In this document: in pieces, positions 21,426-56,854 of the stretch
Numbering within the stretch: position 1 is the first letter of the stretch
Layout of the letters: the number at the start of each line of letters is the position of its first letter
Assembly: GCF_016406085.1 (NCBI RefSeq)
Contig: NZ_JAEHFJ010000002.1
Location: forward strand, 598,091-662,090
Source: Aureibaculum flavum
Lineage (GTDB): Bacteria > Bacteroidota > Bacteroidia > Flavobacteriales > Flavobacteriaceae
Direction: 5' to 3'
Length of the DNA: 64,000 nucleotides
Translations under genes and position numbers: made by a program
The notes under the pieces: model-generated
The model's database searches: none
Seen by the model: the letters and a program-made list of their open reading frames with translations, nothing else
What the model was told of the DNA's origin: nothing

Positions 21426-24400
21426 TTGAAAATCAACTTAAAAAAGACATATAGTCTATTTTTATTATTATTGTTCTTTGCATCAACCCCCATTTTTGCA
21501 CAAAGACCCCCTTCTGCCCCAAACCCAAAAGACACAACTAAAGTAATCGCCTCAAAACCAGTCACTAAAACTGTTGAGAGTGTAAATAGAGATACTTTAC
21601 CTGATTTGCCATACAACTTTAAGCGTGATCAGAAAGGTAGTCTTTTCCTTGATAACTTATCAGAATACGAAATTCTTTATGACGCCGAATCAAAACAATA
21701 TATTTTTGTAAAAAAAGTTGGTGATTATTATGTAAAGCACCCATCATACATGACTGAAGATGAGTACAAAGAGTACCGTCTAAAGAAAGATATGATAGAT
21801 TACTTTAAAGAAAAAGTAAGTGCAGTAAGTGGTCGAAATAAGGATAGTGATGCTCAAAAGAACTTAATGCCAAGGTATTATGTAAAATCAGATCTTTTTG
21901 AAAATATTTTTGGTGGAAATACTATCGAAGTAAACCCACAGGGTTCTGTCTTGGTTAAAATGGGTGTTTTATTTCAAAAAGTTGAAAACCCTCAATTGTC
22001 TGAACGCAATCGTCAAAGCACAACGTTCGATTTTGATGCAGAAATTAATGCAAGTCTAAATGCAAAAGTAGGAAATCGACTTCGTGTAAATGCGGCTTTT
22101 GATACGCAATCAACATTTAACTTTCAAAATCAAATAAAACTAGAATATACACCTACTGAAGACGATATAATTCAAAAAATTGAAGTTGGTAATATTAGTA
22201 TGCCTATTCAGAATTCATTAGTAAGTGGTGCACAAAATCTTTTTGGTTTTAAGACTCAGTTACAATTTGGTAAAACAATGGTAACAGGCGTCTTCTCGCA
22301 ACAAAAATCACAAACTACCTCGGTTGCAGCTGAAGGTGGTGCTACCATTTCTGAGTTTGAAATGAGTGCTAGTAATTATGATGATAACCGACATTTCTTT
22401 CTATCGCAACGCTTCCGTGACGACTTCAATAATGCTATGGCTAGAGTACCGTTAATAAGTAGCTCAAAACAAGTTACGCAAATTGAAGTTTGGGTTACCA
22501 ACAAAAATAACACCACTGAAGATGTTCGCAGTATAGTTGCCTTAGCCGATTTGGGTGAAAATGACCCTACAAATATTCACTCTAGTTTAGTAAGTGCTGC
22601 GGCTGGTAAAAAAGACCCTTCCAATGATGCCAACAGTATTATTAATTTTTTAACACCTAATGGAGGTATTAGAGATATTTCAACTGTAAGTTCTACTCTA
22701 GCCGGCTATCAACAAGGTACCGATTATACCATTTTAGAAAATGCTAGAAAGTTAGTTCTCGGAATAGATTTCACATTAGATCCGCAACTCGGATATATTA
22801 CGTTAAACAGAAGATTGGCAGATAGTGAAATATTAGCTGTAGCTTTTGAATATTCAGACAGTAACATAGCAGGTGAAAATGTTTTCCGTGTTGGTGAACT
22901 CTCTACCGATGGTGTTACTGCTCCAGCCAATTTAGTGGTAAAATTATTACGTAGTGAGATTGTGAATACCACAATACCGATGTGGGATTTAATGATGAAA
23001 AATGTTTATGCATTACCAGGGGCATATCAATTAAACGCAGACGGATTTAGACTTGAATTAATGTATCAAGATGATGAAGAAGGTGTTCCTTTAAATATAT
23101 TGCAGCACGCAACTACTCCAGGTGTAAATGATAAAACATTGCTAAACTTAACAAGACTTGACCGTTTAGATCAATCAAATGACCCAGTTCCTAATGGTGA
23201 TGGTTTATTTGATTTTATTGAAAGTCTAACTATAAATTCTCAAGATGGGTATGTTATATTTCCAACTGTAGAACCTTTTGGAAACAGTAATACCTCTAAC
23301 GCTAACAACCCTGGCGAGTTAGGCGAAATATTAACTGACGCTGCCGACAACCAATATGTGTTTACAGAATTGTATGACAGAACAAAATCACAAGCACAAA
23401 ACGATTTTCAATACAAAGATAAATATGTAATTAAAGGTTATTTTAAAACAGAAAATGATAGAGGGATTCCTTTAGGAGCCTTTAACGTAACAAAAGGTTC
23501 AGTTACGGTTACTTCAGGCGGAAGAGAATTGCTAGAAGGTGTTGATTATGTGGTGGACTACATTTCTGGTTCTGTTCAGATTATTAATCCAAATTTGACA
23601 GCATCTAATGCTCCAATTAATGTATCTGTAGAAAATAATAACGGATTTAATCAACAACAACGTAGTTATCTAGGTGTTGACATACAACATGTTTTTTCAG
23701 AAAATTTTGCAATAGGTGGTACGCTGATTAATATGAGCGAAAGACCATATGGTAAAATGCAATTTGGCCAAGAATCGGTAAACAATACACTTGCTGGATT
23801 CAACTTGAGCTACCAAACCGAAGTCCCTCAATTTACAAAGTGGGTAAATAAACTACCCAATATTGATACGGATGTAACTTCAAATTTTTCTATTCGTGCA
23901 GATGCTGCTTATTTAATGCCAGGTACCGCTACAAATAAAAATGGGGGGATTGAAGGCGAAAACGCATCCTATATAGATGACTTTGAAGCTTCACAAATCC
24001 CATTAGATATTAGTTCTTACAGACAGTGGTTTTTAGCCAGTGTACCTCAGAATCAGAACACGCCTGATTTGCAGTTTTATAATGATGCTGATACAGACCA
24101 ATTAAAATATGGTAAAAAAAGATCACAACTATCATGGTACACCATTGATAGATTGTTTTATGGCAATTCATTAAAACCGAGTAACATTGACGAATCCGAG
24201 CTATCAAGAGCAGAAGTTCGTCAAGTAGGCTATAATGAACTATTCCCTGAGTTAGACTTAGACATTACACAATCAAATATTGTAAATACATTAGATTTAG
24301 CGTATTTCCCTGAAGAGCGTGGTTCTTATAATTTCGATACTCAAAATGTACTCAACGGAAAATTTACAGATCCTGAGAACCGTTGGGCAGGTATTATGCG

Positions 24401-27400
24401 TTCCTTAAACACTACAGATTTCCAACAAGCCAATGTAGAATATATTCAATTTTGGTTAATGGATCCTTACGAAAATTATTCCATAAAGCCTGAAGAAGGA
24501 GGACCTTCAAATGTAAATGCAGGTGACTTTGGTGGAGAGCTGTATTTCAATTTAGGTAATATATCTGAAGATATTTTAACAGATAACCGCAGAATGTATG
24601 AAAACGGTTTACCTGAAGATGGCGTTAAAATTGCGAAACCTAATATCGGAGCTAATGTTGACGAAACTGCTTGGTCAGATATTCCTGTAAAACAATCATT
24701 GATCTATGCTTTTACAGAAAAAGATAACGAAAGACCTAATCAAGATTTAGGTTTAGATGGATTAAAGGACGATGAAGAAGCAACTCGTTTTGGAACACAA
24801 TTTGGCCCTGATCCTGCTAATGATAACTATAACTTTTTTAGAGGTAGTGATTTAGATGCTTCAGATGCATCCATAATAACGCGTTATAGAAATTTCAATA
24901 AAACACAAGGCAACTCACCTACTATTAATAACTCGACAGAATCATACCCAACAGCCGCAAGTTCTTTTCCTGATATTGAAGACATTAATAAAGATCAGAC
25001 CATGAGTACGGTTGAAGGCTATTTTCAATACAAGGTAAATATAGATCCATCTAACTTTATAGTTGGTCAAAATAATATTGTAGATGAAAAAATTGTAGCA
25101 GTTACTTTAGCTGATGGTACACAACAACAAACAAAGTGGTATCAGTTTAGAATCCCAATAACTACACCAGACGAAACTGTAGGTAATATTTCAGATTTTA
25201 ATTCCATCCGCTTTATGAGGATGTTCTTAACTAAATTTAAAGTGCCTGTTGTACTGCGTTTTGGTGAGTTAGAATTGGTTCGAGGTGACTGGAGAAGGTA
25301 TACAAAAACATTAGATGACAACATAAACCCTCCACAAGAATTAACTGAAGCTGAAAACAGAAACTTTGAAGTAGGTGTAGTCAATGTTCAAGAAAACGAA
25401 GGTAAAACACCTATCCCATATGTATTACCTCCAGGATTAGAACGCGAACGTTTACAAGGTACTACAACCTTGCAAGAACAAAATGAACAGTCATTATTAG
25501 TTAGAGTAAATGACTTATTACCAGGTGAAACAAGAGCTGTTTATAAAAACACGCAGTTTGATATGCGAATGTTTAATACCTTAAAAATGTTTGTACATGC
25601 CGAAGCTATAGCTGGGCAATTAGGACTTAATGATGATGACGTTGTTGCTATAATAAGAATGGGTAGCGATACCGATGACAACTATTATCAATATGAAATC
25701 CCTTTAAAAATAACACCTTTTGGTGCTAGTTTTGATGAAGAAATTTGGCCAGAAGAAAATGAAATCATAGCTGACTTAAAAGCGTTTGGACAATTAAAAA
25801 TTGAGAGAGTATCAACGTCTACATCAGTAACGGATGTATACCCTAGTGAAACTGCGGAACCTGATGCTAGGTTACGTATGAAAGGAAATCCGAATTTAGG
25901 AAATATAAAAACCATAATGATAGGTCTAAAAAACAGATCTAACATGTCTAAAAGTGCAGAATTGTGGTTTAATGAATTACGGGTTACTGATTATGATAAT
26001 GAGGGCGGTTGGGCAGCTGTAGTAAATGCGGATGCCAATTTTGCAGATTTTGCAGACTTTTCGGTTTCAGGTAGAGCCAACTCTCAAGGTTTTGGTTCGC
26101 TCGAACAAACAGTTAATGAACGAAGTCAAGAAAATTCTAAACAATATGACGTTATCAGTAATATTAATGTAGGCCAATTATTACCTAAATCTGCAGGAAT
26201 TAAAATTCCATTAAACGTGAGTTATGGTGAAGAATTTGCAGATCCAAAATGGAATCAGAAATATCAAGATGTTCGCTTCAGTAAAAATGATGCCGAAGCT
26301 GAAAGTTCAAGAGATTATACCAAACGAAGAAGTTTAAATCTTATTAACGTAAGAAAAGAACGCACAAATCCTGAAAAGAAAACTCGTTTTTATGATGTTG
26401 AAAATTTATCCGTTTCATATGCATATAATGATACCTACCATAAAGATTATGTAGTAGAAAAATTCTTAGATCAAAATGTGAGAGCTGCGGCTAATTATAA
26501 TTATGCATTTAAGCCAATAGAATTTGAACCTTTTAAAAATTCACAATATTTAGAAAAAAATAGCCTTTTCAAATTTGTAAAAGATTTTAATCTAAATCCG
26601 TTACCAACTTCAATATCGGTAAATTCAAACATTATAAGAAGCTATAATCAACAAGCTTCAAGAGCTCTAGTATCTGGATTTGACCCCATAGAGTTTACAC
26701 AACGGAGATTTCTATTTGATTGGGACTATAATATTGCTTATGACCTTACTAAATCATTACAATTTAGCTTTAGAGCAGCCACAAGTTACATTAATGATTT
26801 AAAAGATGAAGACACACAGGAGGTGCTTACTGACCGTTTATTCGATAATTTCTTCAGTATTGGCAGGCCTAATCAATACCATCAAACTTTAGATGCTACT
26901 TATAAAATACCGCTAAGTAAAATATCTTGGTTCGATTTTTTAAACGGAACCTATAGCTATACCGCTGATTTTGATTGGCAAGCCTCTGCACAAGAATATG
27001 TAGATGAAATAGGGAATACGGTTCAAAATGCCAATACACATACTTTTTCTGCAGATTTAGACATGACCAAGTTATATAAAAGAACAGGTCTATTAGATTT
27101 AGCTAAGAAAAAAACCAAGAGACCTAAAAGAGTTAAAAACTCTAAAAAACACGATTCGACCACAAAGAAAATAGCTGCTCCAAGAACAAGAAGAAAGGTG
27201 ATCAACACTAAAAACAAAACTGGAGGACAAAAAGCTCTTCAAGGACTTGTAGATGTGGTTACTTCTGTTAAGAAAATAAGAATTGCATATTCAGAACAAA
27301 ATGGTACCGTTTTACCTGGCTATACACCTGAAATAGGTTTTCTTGGAAGAGATAGATATAATGGTAGCCTCGCTCCTACTTTTGGTTTTGTATTTGGTAG

Positions 27401-28592
27401 CCAAAGTGACATAAAAGACTTAGCTGCGGCTAACGCATGGTTAGTATCAAGAGACACTTCAACTGCTGGCGGCCGTGTAGCTGACCCTTATTACAGTAAA
27501 ACATTTACCAATACACACTTAAGCAAACTAGATATTAACGCTGATGTTAGGCCTTTTAAAGATTTTAATATAGAACTATCCGCAAATAAAATTTATACAA
27601 GTAACAAATCGCAACAAATAGATGTTATAAATGGCGAACTAACAGATCAACCTTTTAATGAAGTTGGAAATTTTAGTATCAGTCATTTTATGTTAGGTAA
27701 AGCTTTTGATGGTGATGGCGATGCTACTTTCGATGAATTCAAAGCAAATAGAGCCATCATTCAACAAAGATTAGCACAGCAATCTGGTGCAAATGTTGCA
27801 GGCTTTGGCGAAAACAGTCAACAAGTTTTGATTCCTGCTTTCTTAGCTACCTATTCCGGCCGAGATGCTAGTAAGGTAAAACTAAGTGCTTTTAGAGATA
27901 TTCCTATTCCCAATTGGAGATTAAGCTATAAGGGATTCATGAAATTCAAATGGTTTAAAAAGCATTTCAGAAGTTTTATTGTTGAGCATGAATACAATTC
28001 AAGTTATCAAGTTATAGGGTTTAATAACAATCTTTTGCGTAGTGAGACGAACAAGTATTCAGAACTTGATGATAATGGAAACTATAGACCTGAAAAAATA
28101 TTTTCTGGTATAAACTTAGTTGAAGAGTTCAATCCATTAATAAAAGTGGATATGCGTATGAAAAACTCTTTCTCAGTTAGAGCAGAACTAAAACAAGACA
28201 AAACATTGAACTTAAACGTTAGTAACAATACCATCACTGAGATAAGAGGAAAAGAATATGTCTTAGGATTGGGTTACCGTTTAAAAGATGTGAAATTAAA
28301 AATGAGAACAGGTAATTCAATTACTAGTTTTAAAGGTGATATAACCTTGTCTGGAGATGTTAGCATCCGTAATAATTCTACTACTATTCGTTCTATTGAT
28401 GTTTTAAACAATCAAGTAACAGGTGGGCAACGTTTACTTTCATTTAAATTTAAGGCTGATTATGCGTTAAACAAGAACTTATTGGCCTCTTTTTATTATG
28501 ATCAGAATAGTTCACGCTTTTTAATTTCAACCACTTTCCCAAGAAAATCAGTTAGTGCTGGTATACAAATTCGTTACACTATTGGTAACTAA
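21426..28592 (+). CDS. sprA: Type IX secretion translocon protein SprA
   Basis: Giant outer-membrane barrel that forms the protein-conducting channel of the T9SS; also needed for gliding. It has 2388 residues. The signal peptide (LLLLFFASTPIFAQ) is followed by long beta-strand-rich sequence with family segments such as NTIEVNPQGSVLVKMG and NGGIEGENASYIDDFEASQ; the C-terminus ends in an aromatic-rich barrel strand (SAGIQIRYTIGN). The start is TTG at 21426, 4 bases after the ruvA stop, so translation is probably coupled. A basic, low-complexity stretch (about 1890-1935, many Lys/Arg) interrupts the C-terminal third. The gene is intact with no frameshift. Confidence 0.97.
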   Translation: MKINLKKTYSLFLLLLFFASTPIFAQRPPSAPNPKDTTKVIASKPVTKTVESVNRDTLPDLPYNFKRDQKGSLFLDNLSEYEILYDAESKQYIFVKKVGDYYVKHPSYMTEDEYKEYRLKKDMIDYFKEKVSAVSGRNKDSDAQKNLMPRYYVKSDLFENIFGGNTIEVNPQGSVLVKMGVLFQKVENPQLSERNRQSTTFDFDAEINASLNAKVGNRLRVNAAFDTQSTFNFQNQIKLEYTPTEDDIIQKIEVGNISMPIQNSLVSGAQNLFGFKTQLQFGKTMVTGVFSQQKSQTTSVAAEGGATISEFEMSASNYDDNRHFFLSQRFRDDFNNAMARVPLISSSKQVTQIEVWVTNKNNTTEDVRSIVALADLGENDPTNIHSSLVSAAAGKKDPSNDANSIINFLTPNGGIRDISTVSSTLAGYQQGTDYTILENARKLVLGIDFTLDPQLGYITLNRRLADSEILAVAFEYSDSNIAGENVFRVGELSTDGVTAPANLVVKLLRSEIVNTTIPMWDLMMKNVYALPGAYQLNADGFRLELMYQDDEEGVPLNILQHATTPGVNDKTLLNLTRLDRLDQSNDPVPNGDGLFDFIESLTINSQDGYVIFPTVEPFGNSNTSNANNPGELGEILTDAADNQYVFTELYDRTKSQAQNDFQYKDKYVIKGYFKTENDRGIPLGAFNVTKGSVTVTSGGRELLEGVDYVVDYISGSVQIINPNLTASNAPINVSVENNNGFNQQQRSYLGVDIQHVFSENFAIGGTLINMSERPYGKMQFGQESVNNTLAGFNLSYQTEVPQFTKWVNKLPNIDTDVTSNFSIRADAAYLMPGTATNKNGGIEGENASYIDDFEASQIPLDISSYRQWFLASVPQNQNTPDLQFYNDADTDQLKYGKKRSQLSWYTIDRLFYGNSLKPSNIDESELSRAEVRQVGYNELFPELDLDITQSNIVNTLDLAYFPEERGSYNFDTQNVLNGKFTDPENRWAGIMRSLNTTDFQQANVEYIQFWLMDPYENYSIKPEEGGPSNVNAGDFGGELYFNLGNISEDILTDNRRMYENGLPEDGVKIAKPNIGANVDETAWSDIPVKQSLIYAFTEKDNERPNQDLGLDGLKDDEEATRFGTQFGPDPANDNYNFFRGSDLDASDASIITRYRNFNKTQGNSPTINNSTESYPTAASSFPDIEDINKDQTMSTVEGYFQYKVNIDPSNFIVGQNNIVDEKIVAVTLADGTQQQTKWYQFRIPITTPDETVGNISDFNSIRFMRMFLTKFKVPVVLRFGELELVRGDWRRYTKTLDDNINPPQELTEAENRNFEVGVVNVQENEGKTPIPYVLPPGLERERLQGTTTLQEQNEQSLLVRVNDLLPGETRAVYKNTQFDMRMFNTLKMFVHAEAIAGQLGLNDDDVVAIIRMGSDTDDNYYQYEIPLKITPFGASFDEEIWPEENEIIADLKAFGQLKIERVSTSTSVTDVYPSETAEPDARLRMKGNPNLGNIKTIMIGLKNRSNMSKSAELWFNELRVTDYDNEGGWAAVVNADANFADFADFSVSGRANSQGFGSLEQTVNERSQENSKQYDVISNINVGQLLPKSAGIKIPLNVSYGEEFADPKWNQKYQDVRFSKNDAEAESSRDYTKRRSLNLINVRKERTNPEKKTRFYDVENLSVSYAYNDTYHKDYVVEKFLDQNVRAAANYNYAFKPIEFEPFKNSQYLEKNSLFKFVKDFNLNPLPTSISVNSNIIRSYNQQASRALVSGFDPIEFTQRRFLFDWDYNIAYDLTKSLQFSFRAATSYINDLKDEDTQEVLTDRLFDNFFSIGRPNQYHQTLDATYKIPLSKISWFDFLNGTYSYTADFDWQASAQEYVDEIGNTVQNANTHTFSADLDMTKLYKRTGLLDLAKKKTKRPKRVKNSKKHDSTTKKIAAPRTRRKVINTKNKTGGQKALQGLVDVVTSVKKIRIAYSEQNGTVLPGYTPEIGFLGRDRYNGSLAPTFGFVFGSQSDIKDLAAANAWLVSRDTSTAGGRVADPYYSKTFTNTHLSKLDINADVRPFKDFNIELSANKIYTSNKSQQIDVINGELTDQPFNEVGNFSISHFMLGKAFDGDGDATFDEFKANRAIIQQRLAQQSGANVAGFGENSQQVLIPAFLATYSGRDASKVKLSAFRDIPIPNWRLSYKGFMKFKWFKKHFRSFIVEHEYNSSYQVIGFNNNLLRSETNKYSELDDNGNYRPEKIFSGINLVEEFNPLIKVDMRMKNSFSVRAELKQDKTLNLNVSNNTITEIRGKEYVLGLGYRLKDVKLKMRTGNSITSFKGDITLSGDVSIRNNSTTIRSIDVLNNQVTGGQRLLSFKFKADYALNKNLLASFYYDQNSSRFLISTTFPRKSVSAGIQIRYTIGN

Positions 28593-48219: not shown

Positions 48220-48603
48220 ATGGAAAAAGAACAAATTGAAATATATGAAAAAGCCCGGAAAAGGGTAAGGCAAAAAAAGAGATTATATTATCATTTTATT
48301 GTATTTTTAGTTGGTTCTCTATTTATAATAGTATTAAACACTTTTTTTAAAGTTGGAAGCCAATATGGTGAATGGTTTAAATATGTGGTTGCCCTTTGGC
48401 TTTTAATATGGATATTTCATTTTATTAATGTTTTTGTTACTAATAAGTTTTTTGGAAAAGAATGGGAACGTATTGAAACTGAGAAATTAATGGACAAACA
48501 CGAAATGAAATCGGATAAATTAGAAAGAGAACTTATTAAACAGGGAGTTATAACTCCTAATGATAAAATTTCTGGTTCAGAAAAAAAAACTCTAAACCAT
48601 TGA
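48220..48603 (+). CDS. 2TM domain membrane protein
   Basis: ATG 48220 is preferred over the GTG three bases earlier. The 127-residue product has a basic helix (YEKARKRVRQKKRLYYH), two membrane helices (about 25-44, 56-75), and a charged tail. This is the 2TM domain common in Flavobacteria and found fused to histidine kinases elsewhere; its function alone is unknown. Its TGA stop overlaps the TTG start of folA. Confidence 0.8.
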   Translation: MEKEQIEIYEKARKRVRQKKRLYYHFIVFLVGSLFIIVLNTFFKVGSQYGEWFKYVVALWLLIWIFHFINVFVTNKFFGKEWERIETEKLMDKHEMKSDKLERELIKQGVITPNDKISGSEKKTLNH

Positions 48604-49079
48604 TAACTGTTATTGCCGCAATTGGCAAAAATCGGGAACTAGGAAAGAATAATGAATTAATTTGGCACTTGCCGGATGATTTAAAACGTTTTAAGAAAGT
48701 AACTTCTGGACATGATGTAATTATGGGTAGAAAAACTTTTGAATCATTAGGTAAAGCCTTACCGAATAGAACAAATATTGTAATTACTAGAAACAAGAAC
48801 TATAAAGCAGAAAATTGTGTTGTAGTCAACTCCATTGAAGAAGCTATTAAAATTTCTACTGATACGAACCCTTATATTTTAGGTGGAGCTCAAATTTATT
48901 CTCAAGCTATTAAAATAGCCGATGAACTTGATTTGACTTTTGTAGATGCTTCATTTGATGCTGATGCTTTTTTTCCTGAAATAGATACTACTATCTGGAA
49001 AGAAAAACATCGTGAAGATTTCTTAGCAGATGAAAAACATAAATATAATTATAGTTTTATTCTTTATAATAGGAAGTAA
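48600..49079 (+). CDS. folA: Dihydrofolate reductase
   Basis: Reduces dihydrofolate to tetrahydrofolate, closing the cycle with ThyA. It has 159 residues. The start is TTG 48600, overlapping the previous stop (CATTGA), which gives the conserved opening ITVIAAIGKNRELGKNN. Other signatures are WHLPDDLKRFKKVTSG, GRKTFESLG and YILGGAQIYSQA. Translation is probably coupled to the 2TM gene. Confidence 0.96.
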   Translation: MITVIAAIGKNRELGKNNELIWHLPDDLKRFKKVTSGHDVIMGRKTFESLGKALPNRTNIVITRNKNYKAENCVVVNSIEEAIKISTDTNPYILGGAQIYSQAIKIADELDLTFVDASFDADAFFPEIDTTIWKEKHREDFLADEKHKYNYSFILYNRK

Positions 49080-49090
49080 TTAGACATAAA

Positions 49091-49118
49091 AAAAAGTGAG
49101 CCACTACACTCACTTTTT
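49091..49118. terminator. Terminator, first secreted-protein gene (copy 1)
   Basis: AAAAAGTGAG (49091-49100) pairs with CTCACTTTTT (49109-49118) around CCACTACA. A and T tracts on both sides let it serve folA and the convergent gene. Confidence 0.85.
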
Positions 49119-49169
49119 ACTCAAACTAACTAATCAAATATCTATGATATTAACTTATCATAAATTTCT

Positions 49170-49748
49170 TTATATTTTAATTTCTTTTTCAAATGACATA
49201 TCCTTATTTGAGAGTACAACTCTATATTTCCCAGCTATACTTGAAGAAAAATCATATACTTTATTAAATATTTGGTCATTTTCAATTTTCTCAGAATAAA
49301 CCAAATCTCCATTTTCATAAAAAATACTTAAGCCTAAGAATTCAGAGTCTAAAATTGTTTTTTGAACTGTTAAGAGTCCATCGTTGTTTACAACTGAAGG
49401 CTTAAAAAAGATAGATTCATTTTCTTTATCAAAAACAACCTTATTCTTAGTTACATCAAATGGAATTAATTTAATTTGATACTCCTTATCTAATTCAAAA
49501 ATATAATTACCGTCTGGTAATGCTGTTAAATCAAATTTCTTTGAATAATTTCCATTAATTTGAATTGTCTCTTTGTAAAGAATCAAACCATTATTGTCTT
49601 TTATACTCAATACAGAACCTTCTGTTACATCATTTAATGTTACGTTAGTAACATCATCATTTTCGTTAGTTACAATTTCATTTGCATAACTAATCATAGT
49701 AGTACATAATACTACTAATACTAAACTTTTTTTGATCACGTTTTTCAT
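49170..49748 (-). CDS. Small secreted protein A, copy 1 (two T9SS-tail-like repeats)
   Basis: A protein of 192 residues of unrecognised family. A signal peptide (LVVLCTTMISYA) is followed by two similar beta-sandwich-like halves, about 45-99 and 138-192. In both, LSI...NG.(I/L)(L/V)Y.E.I is followed by an FDL or YDF segment and then G.Y.(F/V).L. This pattern recalls the C-terminal sorting domain of T9SS cargo, but there is no passenger domain. The protein is identical to copy 2 at 51019. It has its own promoter and terminator. Confidence 0.85.
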   Translation of the reverse strand: MKNVIKKSLVLVVLCTTMISYANEIVTNENDDVTNVTLNDVTEGSVLSIKDNNGLILYKETIQINGNYSKKFDLTALPDGNYIFELDKEYQIKLIPFDVTKNKVVFDKENESIFFKPSVVNNDGLLTVQKTILDSEFLGLSIFYENGDLVYSEKIENDQIFNKVYDFSSSIAGKYRVVLSNKDMSFEKEIKI

Positions 49749-49778
49749 GTTTTTATTTTTTTAGAATTAATTACACTA

Positions 49779-49848
49779 CAAATGTATGGGGACTTCTACT
49801 TTTAGAAAACATCAATATTAATACATATCTGTAGTATATTAACACAAT
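49779..49848 (-). promoter_or_regulatory. Promoter and conserved upstream element of protein A copy 1
   Basis: On the minus strand TACATTTG (49779-49786) is an exact -7 box about 30 bases before the ATG. A 45-base element (49804-49848), containing TACATATCTGTAGTATATTA on the plus strand, covers the -33 region and beyond. It recurs before all four genes of the family. Confidence 0.65.
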
Positions 49849-50009
49849 ACAAGTCGCAAATAAATATACTTGTTAATTTAGTATATATTCAGGTTAACTT
49901 TCCGTAGTTTCATAAAATTATGATTTGAATAGAAATAAGTTATTATGCATTACTCAACCTAAAGCTTGTTCCAATTCTTTTAAACCATAGTGTTGATTTT
50001 TAAACAAAA

Positions 50010-50037
50010 AAAAAGTGAGCCACAACACTCACTTTTT
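50010..50037 (-). terminator. Terminator, protein B copy 1
   Basis: AAAAAGTGAG (50010-50019) and CTCACTTTTT (50028-50037) around CCACAACA; same stem as at the other family genes. Confidence 0.85.
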
Positions 50038-50087
50038 ACTCAAACTAACTAATTAAATATTTATGAATTTTATATCACAAATGTCAT

Positions 50088-50669
50088 TTATAGATTTATT
50101 TCTTTTATAAATGTTCTATCTTCAGTTGATAACAACACTTTATATTTACCATTTAAACTTTTCGAAAAATCATACGTCTTATTTATTAACTTTTCATTGT
50201 TAAATTTCTCTGAATGCACTAAGTCTCCATTTTCAAAATAAATTTTTATGTTCAATCCCTTTTCAGAATTTAGAATCGTTTTTTGGATTCTTAACATATT
50301 ATTTTCAAGAACCATCGCTGGTTTAAAAATTACTGTTTGATTTTCATCATTAAGATTTACAACATTACGTTTTACATTAAAGGGTATAGATTTAATTTCA
50401 AAATCTTTATCCAATTCAAAAATATAAGTTCCATCAGGCAATGAAGTCAAATCAAACTTCTTTGAATAATCACCACTTACTTTTATAGTTTCTTTATAAA
50501 GAATTAAACCATGAACATCTTTTATACTCAATACAGAACCTTCTGTTACATCATTTAATGTTACTTTAGTAGCATCATCATTTTCGTTAGTTACAATTTC
50601 ACTTGCATAACTAAACATAGTAGTACATAATACTACTAATACTATACTGTTTTTTATTATTTGTTTCAT
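50088..50669 (-). CDS. Small secreted protein B, copy 1 (paralogue of A)
   Basis: A protein of 193 residues. It shares signal peptide, spacing and both beta repeats with protein A, and parts are identical (VTLNDVTEGSVLSIKD; the LPDG.Y motif), but the second half has diverged (KGLNIKIYFENGDLVHSEKF). So B arose from A, or the reverse, by an older duplication. It is identical in sequence to copy 2 at 51937. Function unknown; secretion and small size suggest a periplasmic or surface role. Confidence 0.85.
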   Translation of the reverse strand: MKQIIKNSIVLVVLCTTMFSYASEIVTNENDDATKVTLNDVTEGSVLSIKDVHGLILYKETIKVSGDYSKKFDLTSLPDGTYIFELDKDFEIKSIPFNVKRNVVNLNDENQTVIFKPAMVLENNMLRIQKTILNSEKGLNIKIYFENGDLVHSEKFNNEKLINKTYDFSKSLNGKYKVLLSTEDRTFIKEINL

Positions 50670-50698
50670 CTTTTCTTTTTTTAGAATTATTTACACTA

Positions 50699-50768
50699 CA
50701 AATGTATGAGGGCTTCTACTTTTAGAAAACATCAATATTAATACATATCTATAGTATATTAACACAAT
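50699..50768 (-). promoter_or_regulatory. Promoter and conserved upstream element of protein B copy 1
   Basis: TACATTTG on the minus strand (50699-50706), then the 45-base element (50724-50768) with one change from that of protein A (A for G in TACATATCTATAG). Confidence 0.65.
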
Positions 50769-50939
50769 AAAATCAACATAGGATAAGTAAAGTTAATTTA
50801 ACATATATTAAGGTTAACTATCCGTAGTTTTCTTAAAATTGGAATTGAATAGAAATAGATTCATTTAATAATACTTATCCCTAAAACCTATCGTCCGTTG
50901 TTAATTAATTTAACCATGGAATTCACTTTTAAACACAAA

Positions 50940-50967
50940 AAAAAGTGAGCCACTACACTCACTTTTT
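50940..50967 (-). terminator. Terminator, protein A copy 2
   Basis: Same hairpin as at 49091-49118: AAAAAGTGAG and CTCACTTTTT around CCACTACA. Confidence 0.85.
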
Positions 50968-51018
50968 ACTCAAACTAACTAATCAAATATCTATGATATT
51001 AACTTATCATAAATTTCT

Positions 51019-51597
51019 TTATATTTTAATTTCTTTTTCAAATGACATATCCTTATTTGAGAGTACAACTCTATATTTCCCAGCTATACTTGAAGAAAAA
51101 TCGTATACTTTATTAAATATTTGGTCATTTTCAATTTTCTCAGAATAAACCAAATCTCCATTTTCATAAAAAATACTTAAGCCTAAGAATTCAGAGTCTA
51201 AAATTGTTTTTTGAACTGTTAAGAGTCCATCGTTGTTTACAACTGAAGGCTTAAAAAATATAGATTCATTTTCTTTATCAAAAACAACCTTATTCTTAGT
51301 TACATCAAATGGAATTAATTTAATTTGATACTCCTTATCTAATTCAAAAATATAATTACCGTCTGGTAATGCTGTTAAATCAAATTTCTTTGAATAATTT
51401 CCATTAATTTGAATTGTCTCTTTGTAAAGAATCAAACCATTATTGTCTTTTATACTCAATACAGAACCTTCTGTTACATCATTTAATGTTACGTTAGTAA
51501 CATCATCATTTTCGTTAGTTACAATTTCATTTGCATAACTAATCATAGTAGTACATAATACTACTAATACTAAACTTTTTTTGATCACGTTTTTCAT
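51019..51597 (-). CDS. Small secreted protein A, copy 2
   Basis: The 192-residue product is identical to that at 49170. The DNA differs at two silent positions (51103, 51259). Signal peptide and two beta repeats as described for copy 1. It has its own -7 box and upstream element. Keeping two identical copies could raise dosage, or the duplication may simply be very recent. Confidence 0.85.
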   Translation of the reverse strand: MKNVIKKSLVLVVLCTTMISYANEIVTNENDDVTNVTLNDVTEGSVLSIKDNNGLILYKETIQINGNYSKKFDLTALPDGNYIFELDKEYQIKLIPFDVTKNKVVFDKENESIFFKPSVVNNDGLLTVQKTILDSEFLGLSIFYENGDLVYSEKIENDQIFNKVYDFSSSIAGKYRVVLSNKDMSFEKEIKI

Positions 51598-51627
51598 GTT
51601 TTTATTTTTTTAGAATTAATTACACTA

Positions 51628-51697
51628 CAAATGTATGGGGACTTCTACTTTTAGAAAACATCAATATTAATACATATCTGTAGTATATTAACACAAT
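51628..51697 (-). promoter_or_regulatory. Promoter and conserved upstream element of protein A copy 2
   Basis: TACATTTG on the minus strand (51628-51635) and the 45-base element (51653-51697), identical to copy 1. Confidence 0.65.
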
Positions 51698-51858
51698 ACA
51701 AGTCGCAAATAAATATACTTGTTAATTTAGTATATATTCAGGTTAACTTTCCGTAGTTTCATAAAATTATGATTTGAATAGAAATAAGTTATTATGCATT
51801 ACTCAACCTAAAGCTTGTTCCAATTCTTTTAAACCATAGTGTTGATTTTTAAACAAAA

Positions 51859-51886
51859 AAAAAGTGAGCCACAACACTCACTTTTT
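51859..51886 (-). terminator. Terminator, protein B copy 2
   Basis: Same hairpin as at 50010-50037. Confidence 0.85.
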
Positions 51887-51936
51887 ACTCAAACTAACTA
51901 ATTAAATATTTATGAATTTTATATCACAAATGTCAT

Positions 51937-52518
51937 TTATAGATTTATTTCTTTTATAAATGTTCTATCTTCAGTTGATAACAACACTTTATATTTACCA
52001 TTTAAACTTTTCGAAAAATCATACGTCTTATTTATTAACTTTTCATTGTTAAATTTCTCTGAATGCACTAAGTCTCCATTTTCAAAATAAATTTTTATGT
52101 TCAATCCCTTTTCAGAATTTAGAATCGTTTTTTGGATTCTTAACATATTATTTTCAAGAACCATCGCTGGTTTAAAAATTACTGTTTGATTTTCATCATT
52201 AAGATTTACAACATTACGTTTTACATTAAAGGGTATAGATTTAATTTCAAAATCTTTATCCAATTCAAAAATATAAGTTCCATCAGGCAATGAAGTCAAA
52301 TCAAACTTCTTTGAATAATCACCACTTACTTTTATAGTTTCTTTATAAAGAATTAAACCATGAACATCTTTTATACTCAATACAGAACCTTCTGTTACAT
52401 CATTTAATGTTACTTTAGTAGCATCATCATTTTCGTTAGTTACAATTTCACTTGCATAACTAAACATAGTAGTACATAATACTACTAATACTATACTGTT
52501 TTTTATTATTTGTTTCAT
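51937..52518 (-). CDS. Small secreted protein B, copy 2
   Basis: The 193-residue product is identical to that at 50088, and I saw no DNA difference in the coding region. It is the copy nearest the AraC-type regulator and divergent from it. Its upstream region departs from that of copy 1 right after the -7 box, yet the 45-base element is kept, with one change. Confidence 0.85.
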   Translation of the reverse strand: MKQIIKNSIVLVVLCTTMFSYASEIVTNENDDATKVTLNDVTEGSVLSIKDVHGLILYKETIKVSGDYSKKFDLTSLPDGTYIFELDKDFEIKSIPFNVKRNVVNLNDENQTVIFKPAMVLENNMLRIQKTILNSEKGLNIKIYFENGDLVHSEKFNNEKLINKTYDFSKSLNGKYKVLLSTEDRTFIKEINL

Positions 52519-52547
52519 CTTTTCTTTTTTTAGAATTATTTACACTA

Positions 52548-52617
52548 CAAATGTATAGCGATATATAACTCTAGAAAACATCAATTTTAATACATATCTA
52601 TAGTATATTAACACAAT
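52548..52617 (-). promoter_or_regulatory. Promoter and conserved upstream element of protein B copy 2
   Basis: TACATTTG on the minus strand (52548-52555). The next 17 bases differ from the other copies, but the element at 52573-52617 is preserved (CATCAATTTTAATACATATC in part). Conservation inside diverged sequence points to selection on the element. Confidence 0.65.
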
Positions 52618-52696
52618 TAACTCACACAACAATCAAAAATGTTAAAATAGAACACAATATTGTTAAATGTCTATAGGTTTACCAAATAATATCTCG

Positions 52697-52704
52697 TAAT
52701 TTTG
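52697..52704 (+). promoter_or_regulatory. -7 box of the AraC-type regulator gene
   Basis: TAATTTTG is an exact TAnnTTTG match ending 17 bases before ATG 52722. No matching -33 element is seen, which would fit a weak or activator-dependent promoter. Confidence 0.5.
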
Positions 52705-52721
52705 TAACAATAATATATAAT

Positions 52722-53606
52722 ATGACAATGATTAAGAAACCAACTTTTGAAAAGATAAGTCCAAATTTTGGAAGTTCTGTTTTGGTAATGCAGCATACGA
52801 AAAAAATAAAAAACAAGAACTCCGCATTTTGGCACTTTCACCCAGAAATAGAATTAGTATATGTTGATAAAGGAAAAGGAAAGAGACATATAGGTAATCA
52901 CTTGTCATATTTCAATAACAGTCAACTCATATTAATTGGATCTAACTTACCGCATAATGGATTTGCAGATCGTCTTACCACCAGAGGTACAGAAACAATT
53001 GTGCAATTTAAACCGGATTTCTTAGGAGAAAACTTTTTTAAGATTCCAGAAATGAATGCGATCGATTTATTGTTAGAAAAAGCTAAAAAAGGATTACTAT
53101 ACAGACCTGAAACAAAAGAAATTGTTGGACCCAAAATTCAACACTTAATTGATTTAAAAGGGTTTGAGAGGATAAGCCTATTACTTGAAATCTTAAACGA
53201 TTTAGCCAAAGCAGAAGATTATACATTACTAAATGTAGATGGCTTTTCTTTTGAAACAGAGGCTCAAGACAGTGCTAAAATTGATATGATTTTTAAGCAT
53301 ATCAATACCAATTTTCAACGACCGATTCCATTAGACGAAATAGCAGATAAAGTAAGTATGACTGTACCTGCATTTTGTAGGTATTTTAAAAAAGCTACGG
53401 GTAAAACTTTTACAAAGCTAGTAAATGAATATCGAGTTGTACACGCAACCAAATTACTCTCAGAAAGTCAATCAAGTATAACAGACATCTGTTTTGAGTG
53501 TGGTTTTAATAATTTTTCACACTTCAACAAATTATTTAATGAGATTACAGGAAAAAGTGCCTCTAAATATAGAAGTGAAATAAAACACTTAATCAAGCAA
53601 GGCTAA
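52722..53606 (+). CDS. AraC-family transcriptional regulator with cupin sensor domain
   Basis: A protein of 294 residues. The N-terminal cupin-like domain (about 25-110; FWHFHPEIELVYVDKGKGKRHIG) would bind a small ligand. The C-terminal AraC DNA-binding domain (about 190-288) has two helix-turn-helix motifs, IPLDEIADKVSMTVPAFCRY and SITDICFECGFNNFSHFNKL. It is divergent from the four secreted-protein genes, so it is their likely regulator; the 45-base element upstream of each is a candidate binding site. Its stop abuts that of the convergent sppA. Confidence 0.9.
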   Translation: MTMIKKPTFEKISPNFGSSVLVMQHTKKIKNKNSAFWHFHPEIELVYVDKGKGKRHIGNHLSYFNNSQLILIGSNLPHNGFADRLTTRGTETIVQFKPDFLGENFFKIPEMNAIDLLLEKAKKGLLYRPETKEIVGPKIQHLIDLKGFERISLLLEILNDLAKAEDYTLLNVDGFSFETEAQDSAKIDMIFKHINTNFQRPIPLDEIADKVSMTVPAFCRYFKKATGKTFTKLVNEYRVVHATKLLSESQSSITDICFECGFNNFSHFNKLFNEITGKSASKYRSEIKHLIKQG

Positions 53607-55711: not shown

Positions 55712-56854
55712 ATGAAAATTCAAAGAACCACATATTTATCATTGGGTAGTAACGTTGGAAATCCATTAGAAAATCTACAATTAGCCATTAATTCAATTGC
55801 TAAAAACGTAGGTAGGGTTACCAAAATATCTTCTATATACAAAACAGCTTCGTGGGGTTTTGATAGTGATGATTTTTTAAATATTTGTATTGAAGTTTCT
55901 AGTCACTTAAATCCCGAAAATTTATTAGAACGTGTTTTAACAATTGAAACGGAACTTGGTAGAAATAGAGGTACCTCCACAGCATATAAAGCAAGAATAA
56001 TTGATATTGACGTGCTACTATTTGATGATGAAGTTATTTTTTACAACAACTTGACAGTACCACATCCACGCATGTTAGACCGTAAATTTGTTTTAGTGCC
56101 TTTGGCTGAAATTGCTCCGTTACTTAAACACCCTATAGCCAAAGAAACAATCACTAAATGTTTGGCCCATTGTGATGATACCTTAGAAATTAAAAAGACC
56201 AGTCTAATTCTAACACGACCTATTTCAATTATTGAAAAATACAATTACATAGCTATTGAAGGAAATATTGGTGCTGGTAAAACGACCTTAGCAAAAATGA
56301 TAGGTGACGATTTTAACGCAAAACTAGTATTAGAACGTTTTGCCGACAATCCGTTTTTACCCAAGTATTACGAAGACATGGAAAAATATGCTTTTCCATT
56401 AGAGATGAGTTTTTTAGCAGATAGATACCAACAACTTTCAGATGATTTAGCTCAGTTTGACTTATTTAAAAACTTTATTGTTTCCGACTATTATATTTTC
56501 AAATCTCTCATTTTTGCTCAAGTTTCTTTATCTAAGGAAGAATATAAATTATATAGACGCATTTTTGATGTAATGTATAAAGAAATAACCAAACCCGATT
56601 TATATGTTTATCTTTATCAGAGTATTGAAAGTCTGCTTGAAAACATTAAAAAAAGAGGTCGAGCATATGAACAAAACATAAAACCTGAATATTTAGAACA
56701 AATACATCAAGGCTATGTTAACTTTATTAAAACAGAGCAAAATTTAAATACATTAATAATTGATGTCTCTGAAATGAATTTTGAGAAAAACATCGAAGAT
56801 TACCATAGTGTTATTGATATGATTAATAATAACAAAGGTATGGTCAAAGCATAG
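55712..56854 (+). CDS. folK: Fusion of hydroxymethyldihydropterin pyrophosphokinase (FolK) and deoxynucleoside kinase
   Basis: A protein of 380 residues with two enzymes. Residues 1-160 are FolK (YLSLGSNVGNPLENLQLA; IIDIDVLLFDDE; VPHPRMLDRKFVLVPL), which makes the pterin pyrophosphate for folate. Residues about 175-380 are a deoxynucleoside kinase with the P-loop GNIGAGKT (184-191), the LVLERFADNPF segment and KKRGRAYEQ, which phosphorylates salvaged deoxynucleosides. The fusion links folate synthesis and dNTP salvage. I believe it also occurs in other Bacteroidota. Neighbours thyA, folA and the nucleoside transporter fit. Confidence 0.93.
   Translation: MKIQRTTYLSLGSNVGNPLENLQLAINSIAKNVGRVTKISSIYKTASWGFDSDDFLNICIEVSSHLNPENLLERVLTIETELGRNRGTSTAYKARIIDIDVLLFDDEVIFYNNLTVPHPRMLDRKFVLVPLAEIAPLLKHPIAKETITKCLAHCDDTLEIKKTSLILTRPISIIEKYNYIAIEGNIGAGKTTLAKMIGDDFNAKLVLERFADNPFLPKYYEDMEKYAFPLEMSFLADRYQQLSDDLAQFDLFKNFIVSDYYIFKSLIFAQVSLSKEEYKLYRRIFDVMYKEITKPDLYVYLYQSIESLLENIKKRGRAYEQNIKPEYLEQIHQGYVNFIKTEQNLNTLIIDVSEMNFEKNIEDYHSVIDMINNNKGMVKA

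Follow-up and report, generated by a model that had tools for sequence, protein, structure and literature searches.

Regulators of the AraC/araBAD type control a divergently transcribed target through repeats beside its promoter and a second site further upstream. Tandem duplication and amplification by homologous recombination in bacteria, in turn, produce direct repeats that are recent and whose copy number varies between relatives. Here, we analyzed a 64,000-nucleotide stretch of the genome of the marine bacterium Aureibaculum flavum (Flavobacteriaceae; contig NZ_JAEHFJ010000002.1, positions 598,091 to 662,090), referred to as the window, which shares features with both systems. It contains an array of four small genes of two types, A and B, which all lie on the minus strand in the transcriptional order B2, A2, B1, A1 between a divergent AraC-type regulator and a gene that we take, from its sequence, to be folA. 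The HTH_18 domain, the divergent target, repeats with a 21-bp period near the promoter and an upstream second site are common to this locus and AraC/araBAD; unlike in the latter, the target consists of tandem one-gene cassettes, each with a predicted operator pair, and is dispersed in some genomes. The recent direct repeat and the copy number varying between relatives agree with tandem amplification, but the exchange points lie in per-gene promoter/terminator modules here, so that each copy would remain under the regulator.

The array is better read as four cassettes of ~0.92 kb each, with the 1.85-kb unit comprising two of them. The first-pass annotation had described a duplicated gene pair; the duplication stands, whereas the basic repeat is the one-gene cassette and not the pair. 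The frame thereby shifts from a gene-pair duplication to a cassette array under one predicted regulator, and the cassette organization with predicted AraC-type operators is absent from that annotation. We consider it likely that each cassette comprises a -7 box, a predicted double site for the adjacent AraC-type regulator, a gene for a protein with predicted export and a hairpin, and that a two-cassette block was recently copied by recombination, which would raise the output of the same protein. The -7 box TACATTTG is present at each of the four genes and corresponds to the flavobacterial promoter consensus TAnnTTTG as given in passages of PMC6847099 and PMC9723704. A scan for sigma-70 promoters was uninformative (28 found versus 34 expected), and the TAnnTTTG box fits instead. 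Four terminator-like hairpins were found in 48900-52800, one after each gene, compared to 0.3 expected.

An alignment of 33 intergenic regions between regulator and first gene contains a conserved block whose lower end lies 19 bp from the -7 box. A matrix of 38 positions for this block, predicted operator op1, was trained on 22 of these regions, all outside Aureibaculum; a few training rows are also test cassettes (the first copies of L050 and L053 for op1, the same and L008 for the second operator, op2). With near-identical cassettes counted singly (the window's own, and the first copy of L051 and L052), op1 was found in 56 of 59 cassettes at 24 loci, with a lowest score of 12.7, whereas none of 2950 pair-shuffled controls exceeded 8.9. 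Of these 56 cassettes, 52 have the TAnnTTTG box 19 bp below op1 and one has it 18 bp below, while three lack it. Predicted op2 is a 33-bp block above op1 in which TTAnC is repeated at 21 bp; in the window cassettes it lies 28 bp further up. Both sites are present in 18 of the first copies at 19 loci, at a spacing of 28 bp in 17 and of 49 bp in one. Among 40 interior or dispersed cassettes, 38 carry op1, with a -7 box at 18-20 bp in 35 of these; op2 reaches a score of at least 10 in 32, where it is located 28 bp (26 cassettes), 29 bp (3) or 17 bp (3) above op1. The control for op2 was less clean (99% of 2240 shuffles below 5.3, maximum 15.0), and the constant spacing is a better argument for this site than its scores. 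That interior cassettes without an adjoining regulator gene mostly keep op2 speaks against a site serving only the regulator's own promoter. The best op2 site lies 17 bp above op1 at L060 (three copies), in copy 3 of L059 and at L057; this spacing differs from that of 28 bp by 11 bp, about one helix turn, and copy 2 of L060 has an op2 score of 4.6, within the control range.

When the window genome was searched with an op1 pattern, four matches at one mismatch, all at cassettes, and one more at three mismatches were obtained, compared to 11 matches at up to three mismatches for a reversed control pattern. The pattern was partly derived from the window promoters, and the information therefore lies in the absence of other sites. 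Eight of the ten dispersed cassettes examined keep op1 (L051, five in L056, L057 and L120), which points to action in trans; L130 was left out of this set, as it lies near a contig end (G088:C49) and may belong to the L131 array, which itself runs into a contig end. Binding of the regulator at op1 and op2 is predicted from these sequence patterns. In one genome, two cassettes ~41 kb apart (L051 and L052, G184:C1) encode the same protein and have the same op1, with only one of them at the regulator. In two genomes of one genus, the second copy (L054, L055) is a degenerate cassette at the same array position, with no clear start codon or operator.

The regulator carries an HTH_18 domain at its C-terminus (PF12833, 75.4 bits, cut-off 33.6), while the cupin-like matches at its N-terminus are weak and below the cut-off (AraC_binding, E 0.018; Cupin_2, E 0.044). 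Its structural model is poor, with a predicted local distance difference test score (pLDDT) of 59.6 and residues 1-95 under 50. The protein's identity to its counterpart in A. algae is 99%, and to that in A. luteum 100%; across the three Aureibaculum species, non-synonymous divergence (dN) is 0.001-0.004 and synonymous divergence (dS) 0.24-0.28, corresponding to a dN/dS of ~0.005-0.017.

We surveyed 299 genomes of family f1 (Flavobacteriaceae, judged by its named members) and found a cassette match in 145 and a regulator match (E <= 1e-90) in 159. Co-occurrence was read from the best matches listed, covering 94 of the 145 and 149 of the 159 genomes. Among these matches, regulator and cassette lie within 3 kb of each other in 88 of the 91 genomes that have both, divergent in all 88 and separated by 202-247 bp in 60. 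The three exceptions are G188, in which array and regulator are near contig ends, and G030 and G147, with cassettes ~267 kb and ~108 kb away, respectively. Of 17 genomes of the genus, 9 have both regulator and cassette and 8 have neither, five of the latter being less than 90% complete; a partial match in G012 (E 7e-4) was excluded from this count. A cassette-like neighbor (E 2e-8 or better) is also present at each of 20 distant loci whose regulators are 51-57% identical (14 with and 6 without a listed cassette match), with an op1 score of at least 10 at 14 of the 20. Ten more loci were chosen as exceptions, because they lacked a listed close match, or for comparison, and an adjacent cassette is present at four of them (L125-L127 and L131). 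Among 246 genomes of the wider order, a regulator match (E <= 1e-85) was obtained for 49, of which 27 belong to family f1 and 22 to family f5. A divergent cassette homologue was found at 11 of 12 loci sampled from these 49 (7 f1, 5 f5; profile E 1.7e-12 or better), including 4 of the 5 loci of the second family; a -7 box lies 19 bp below the best op1 in 8 of the 11, with op1 scores of 9.5 to 31.1. As judged from these homology matches, the predicted regulator-target pair is conserved across the family and also occurs in another family of the order. The coordinates of all features are listed in Table 1.

Table 1 Features of the cassette array and its flanks in the window (positions of the 64,000-nucleotide stretch; ORF, open reading frame; aa, amino acids)
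Feature	Position	Strand	Evidence
folA (presumed), dihydrofolate reductase-like, convergent flank	48600..49079	+	ORF
Repeat copy I (A1 terminator to B1 -7 box)	49088..50707	-	
Terminator-like hairpin after A1	49091..49118	-	fold z -3.69
A1, cassette 4, 192 aa	49170..49748	-	ORF
A1 -7 box	49779..49786	-	
Predicted op1 of A1	49806..49843	-	
Predicted op2 of A1	49872..49904	-	
Terminator-like hairpin after B1	50010..50037	-	fold z -3.83
B1, cassette 3, 193 aa	50088..50669	-	ORF
B1 -7 box	50699..50706	-	
229-bp spacer between repeat copies, with predicted B1 operators	50708..50936	-	
Predicted op1 of B1	50726..50763	-	
Predicted op2 of B1	50792..50824	-	
Repeat copy II (A2 terminator to B2 -7 box)	50937..52556	-	
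Terminator-like hairpin after A2	50940..50967	-	fold z -3.42
A2, cassette 2, 192 aa	51019..51597	-	ORF; two silent differences vs A1
A2 -7 box	51628..51635	-	
Predicted op1 of A2	51655..51692	-	
Predicted op2 of A2	51721..51753	-	
Terminator-like hairpin after B2	51859..51886	-	fold z -3.59
B2, cassette 1, 193 aa, predicted exported two-domain protein	51937..52518	-	ORF; DNA-identical to B1
B2 -7 box, TACATTTG	52548..52555	-	
Predicted op1 of B2, 38 bp, 19 bp above -7 box	52575..52612	-	
Predicted op2 of B2, 33 bp, 21-bp period	52641..52673	-	
AraC-type regulator, HTH_18 C-terminal, divergent from array	52722..53606	+	PF12833 E 4.4e-21

In a base-by-base comparison at an offset of 1849, the two copies of the 1.62-kb repeat are identical at 1618 of 1620 positions, a match beyond chance. 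Both mismatches are silent and lie in gene A (49254, A/G, codon 165; 49410, G/T, codon 113), B1 and B2 do not differ in DNA sequence, and positions 49087 and 50708, immediately outside the repeat, are mismatched between the copies. A DNA search with the repeat across all 4.75 Mb of the genome (40 contigs) returned two matches, which are the two window copies. One end of the repeat is located 1 bp past the -7 box of gene B and the opposite end in the T-tract of the terminator-like hairpin of gene A; the repeat hence contains two transcribed units and the predicted A operators without the predicted B operators. The near-perfect tandem duplication reported in the first-pass annotation is thus confirmed, as is its observation that identity ends within the promoter of B. 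A and B were also correctly described as older duplicates, their proteins being 64% identical, and the likeness of the 229-base spacer to the A-B intergenic region is borne out by the A2-B1 intergenic stretch that encloses it (80% identity).

An assembler might have doubled a single B-A pair, as the genome is a 40-contig draft and a near-identical repeat of 1.62 kb is longer than short reads. However, the non-repeat spacer with its operator-promoter region abuts repeat ends on both sides, junctions that need at least two copies; the A copies carry two differences, and four cassettes are also found in A. algae in a genome of one contig. Misassembly of a single copy is therefore very improbable. 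More than two repeat units may be present in this genome.

At this position between regulator and folA, closely related species differ in cassette number: A. luteum (L007) has three in the order B-B-A, A. algae (G001, one contig) four in the order B-B-A-A, among them FF125_03240 and FF125_03245, and A. marinum (G003) two. Such variation in unit count had been proposed as a check on the duplication. The folA flank was also found at L007, L043-L048 and L053. Between one and six cassettes per locus occur among the loci sampled; the copies listed per locus in 88 genomes, which are lower bounds, are one in 59, two in 18, three in 8, four in 1 and five in 2. Sister copies differ by a dS of 0.018 (A) and 0 (B) in the window and of 0.036 (A) and 0.009 (B) in A. 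algae. The two silent differences in 1620 bp, set against interspecies dS values of 0.24-0.30 at the neighboring genes araC and sppA (window, A. luteum and A. algae), support the earlier reading of a recent event, be it duplication or homogenization. In a protein tree of 56 of the 59 cassettes, built without three that are short or lack a start, the two A copies form a pair within their genome, as do the two B copies, both in the window and in A. algae, and the copies of G268, G188 and G030 cluster by genome; the two B copies of A. luteum are not paired with each other.

The promoters carry a further trace of exchange. The first promoter region of the window shares 89-91% identity with the first promoters of A. 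luteum and A. algae, compared to 70-74% with interior ones; past the -7 box, however, it reads GTAGTGTAAAT, as interior promoters do, in place of the GTAGCATAAAT of the relatives' first promoters. This puts an exchange point next to the end of the 1.62-kb identity and gives the first promoter a mosaic appearance, as would be expected if cassettes recombine with each other. The proposal of an exchange at repeated promoter sequence agrees with this mosaic, a signal of two bases. Next to the A. luteum array, folA (L007:7591-8070) has a dS of ~0.67 to the window and to A. algae, which differ from each other by 0.24; a replacement of folA beside this array is possible.

The first-pass annotation had also suggested an antigen-like array, in which copies diversify and recombine and thereby vary an exposed product. 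Predicted exported proteins in a recombining array would suit such a system, as would the lower conservation of the second protein domain compared to the first (it contains 3 of 19 invariant columns) and the young B pair of A. algae with 7 non-synonymous differences and 1 synonymous difference, numbers too few to weigh. Against this stand the identical proteins encoded by the window duplicates, the promoter boxes on all four copies and an interspecies dN/dS of 0.10-0.15 for A and 0.24-0.43 for B. We regard antigen-like variation as highly unlikely, and this part of the earlier interpretation falls, whereas the recent duplication, the older A/B duplicates and the promoter exchange are retained. 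Given identical duplicate proteins under purifying selection, the likely benefit of the array, if any, is dose, and dosage is a reasonable and better inference than antigen-like variation. A regulon could also be real and its duplication of no benefit, the copy number drifting neutrally. This is in line with a single listed cassette at the locus in 59 of 88 genomes (a lower bound on copies), with the differing cassette numbers of the relatives and with the mild codon bias; however, all four window cassettes have kept their sites and hairpins, and multi-copy arrays are retained in both G100 and G306. Neutral drift is a serious but less probable alternative to a dose effect. Codon bias was rejected as a sign of high expression, as it is mild only.

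The cassette products are predicted to be exported two-domain beta-sandwich proteins (A, 192 aa; B, 193 aa) that resemble DUF3244 and type IX sorting domains. Solved members of DUF3244, such as BT_3571 and BT_1867 of Bacteroides thetaiotaomicron, have the beta-sandwich fold that is also predicted here, but the cassette protein has two domains in tandem and scores below the cut-off of PF11589 (B 22.7 and A 13.6 versus 25 bits); precomputed annotation lists this family in 2 of 34 homologues, and for neither A nor B. A fold search with the B model listed many unrelated immunoglobulin (Ig)-like domains, which supports the fold at the level of domains only and barely tests domain 1. When the cassette alignment was searched against the sequences of solved structures, no match was obtained at E up to 1. 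At L112-L117 and L125, the cassette gene beside distant regulator orthologues encodes a one-domain protein of 110-147 aa, and six of the 20 distant loci have such a one-domain neighbor; the two-domain form may stem from a duplication within the gene, or else the shorter form may reflect a loss.

Automatic annotation labels the products as cargo of the type IX secretion system (T9SS; 'T9SS C-terminal target domain'). Type A sorting domains (Por_Secre_tail, PF18962 / TIGR04183) share the beta-sandwich fold and a weak profile similarity with the cassette protein, detectable in 21 of 28 homologues at E <= 0.01, and precomputed annotation lists PF18962.8 for A and B, which makes this reading slightly more probable. 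No profile score reaches its curated cut-off, though (PF18962: A 17.1 and B 22.4 versus 27 bits; TIGR04183: A 14.9 versus 23, B no match), and, unlike in a T9SS sorting domain, the best Por_Secre_tail stretch lies in the N-terminal domain and no separate cargo domain is present. A PNP-like motif marks the start of a T9SS sorting domain; such a motif occurs at the domain border in 0 of 28 homologues, with Lys-Pro in its place in 28 of 28. A role as T9SS cargo thus seems rather doubtful. The window also encodes a homologue of SprA, a component of type IX secretion and gliding (TIGR04189, 2466 bits; window ~21669-28583, G000:C12:619759-626673), which shows only that a type IX system is encoded. 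Elsewhere in the window, a single ORF at 55712-56854 appears, by eye, to fuse folK-like and deoxynucleoside-kinase-like parts.

Taken together, these patterns make a strong prediction of a regulon. The regulator would sense a signal and bind op1 and op2 at every cassette; op1 would sit just above the -7 box, at the position of the -33 element, and op2 further up at a fixed spacing. Each cassette would be transcribed separately and end at its own hairpin, and its product, with two predicted beta-sandwich domains, would act outside the cytoplasm. Terminator and promoter sequences common to all cassettes may allow unequal exchange or gene conversion to add, remove and homogenize cassettes. The present order B-A-B-A may derive from a B-B-A ancestor, as in A. 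luteum, through duplication of B-A together with loss or conversion of the transcribed part of the first cassette.

Several observations weigh against this model. An adjacent cassette is absent at six regulator loci (L118, L119, L121-L124), and none lies within 1.5 kb of the regulator at L145. In the 59-cassette scan, op1 is missing in L009 and in copy 2 of L054 and of L055; it is also missing in the dispersed cassettes L128 and L129 and scores below 10 at 6 of the 20 distant loci. The -33 element is described as weak in F. johnsoniae in a passage of PMC6847099. With regard to recombination, the mosaic signal below the -7 box comprises two bases only, and orthology of the spacer with the B-B spacer of A. 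luteum draws on few shared sites (support 0.44), which makes any order of the exchanges tentative. Cassette copies pair as orthologues across G100 and G306; turnover is therefore not universal and some arrays are stable. Finally, codon usage leans only mildly toward that of ribosomal-protein genes, the cassette genes exceeding 36 to 41 of 45 genes in the window in this respect.

The module was not found among the open-access papers listed on AraC, Flavobacteriaceae, tandem and T9SS topics, as judged from titles and the beginnings of abstracts, so that 'undescribed' refers to these open-access papers; the DUF3244 table passages of PMC10434189 contain no link to this locus. We see an even chance that the locus represents an undescribed AraC switch, which occurs in two families of the order, serves a single family of exported Ig-like proteins, and whose output is set by the number of recombining cassettes, with the dose tuned by unequal exchange while regulator and protein remain untouched. 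An anonymous repeat becomes a testable regulon with a strongly conserved regulator, a pair of predicted operators and a single exported protein family, which is currently annotated as hypothetical or as type IX targets. If true, this would provide a dedicated switch whose site is searchable in any genome, together with naturally occurring arrays of one to six cassettes in which to ask whether tandem copy number sets dose.

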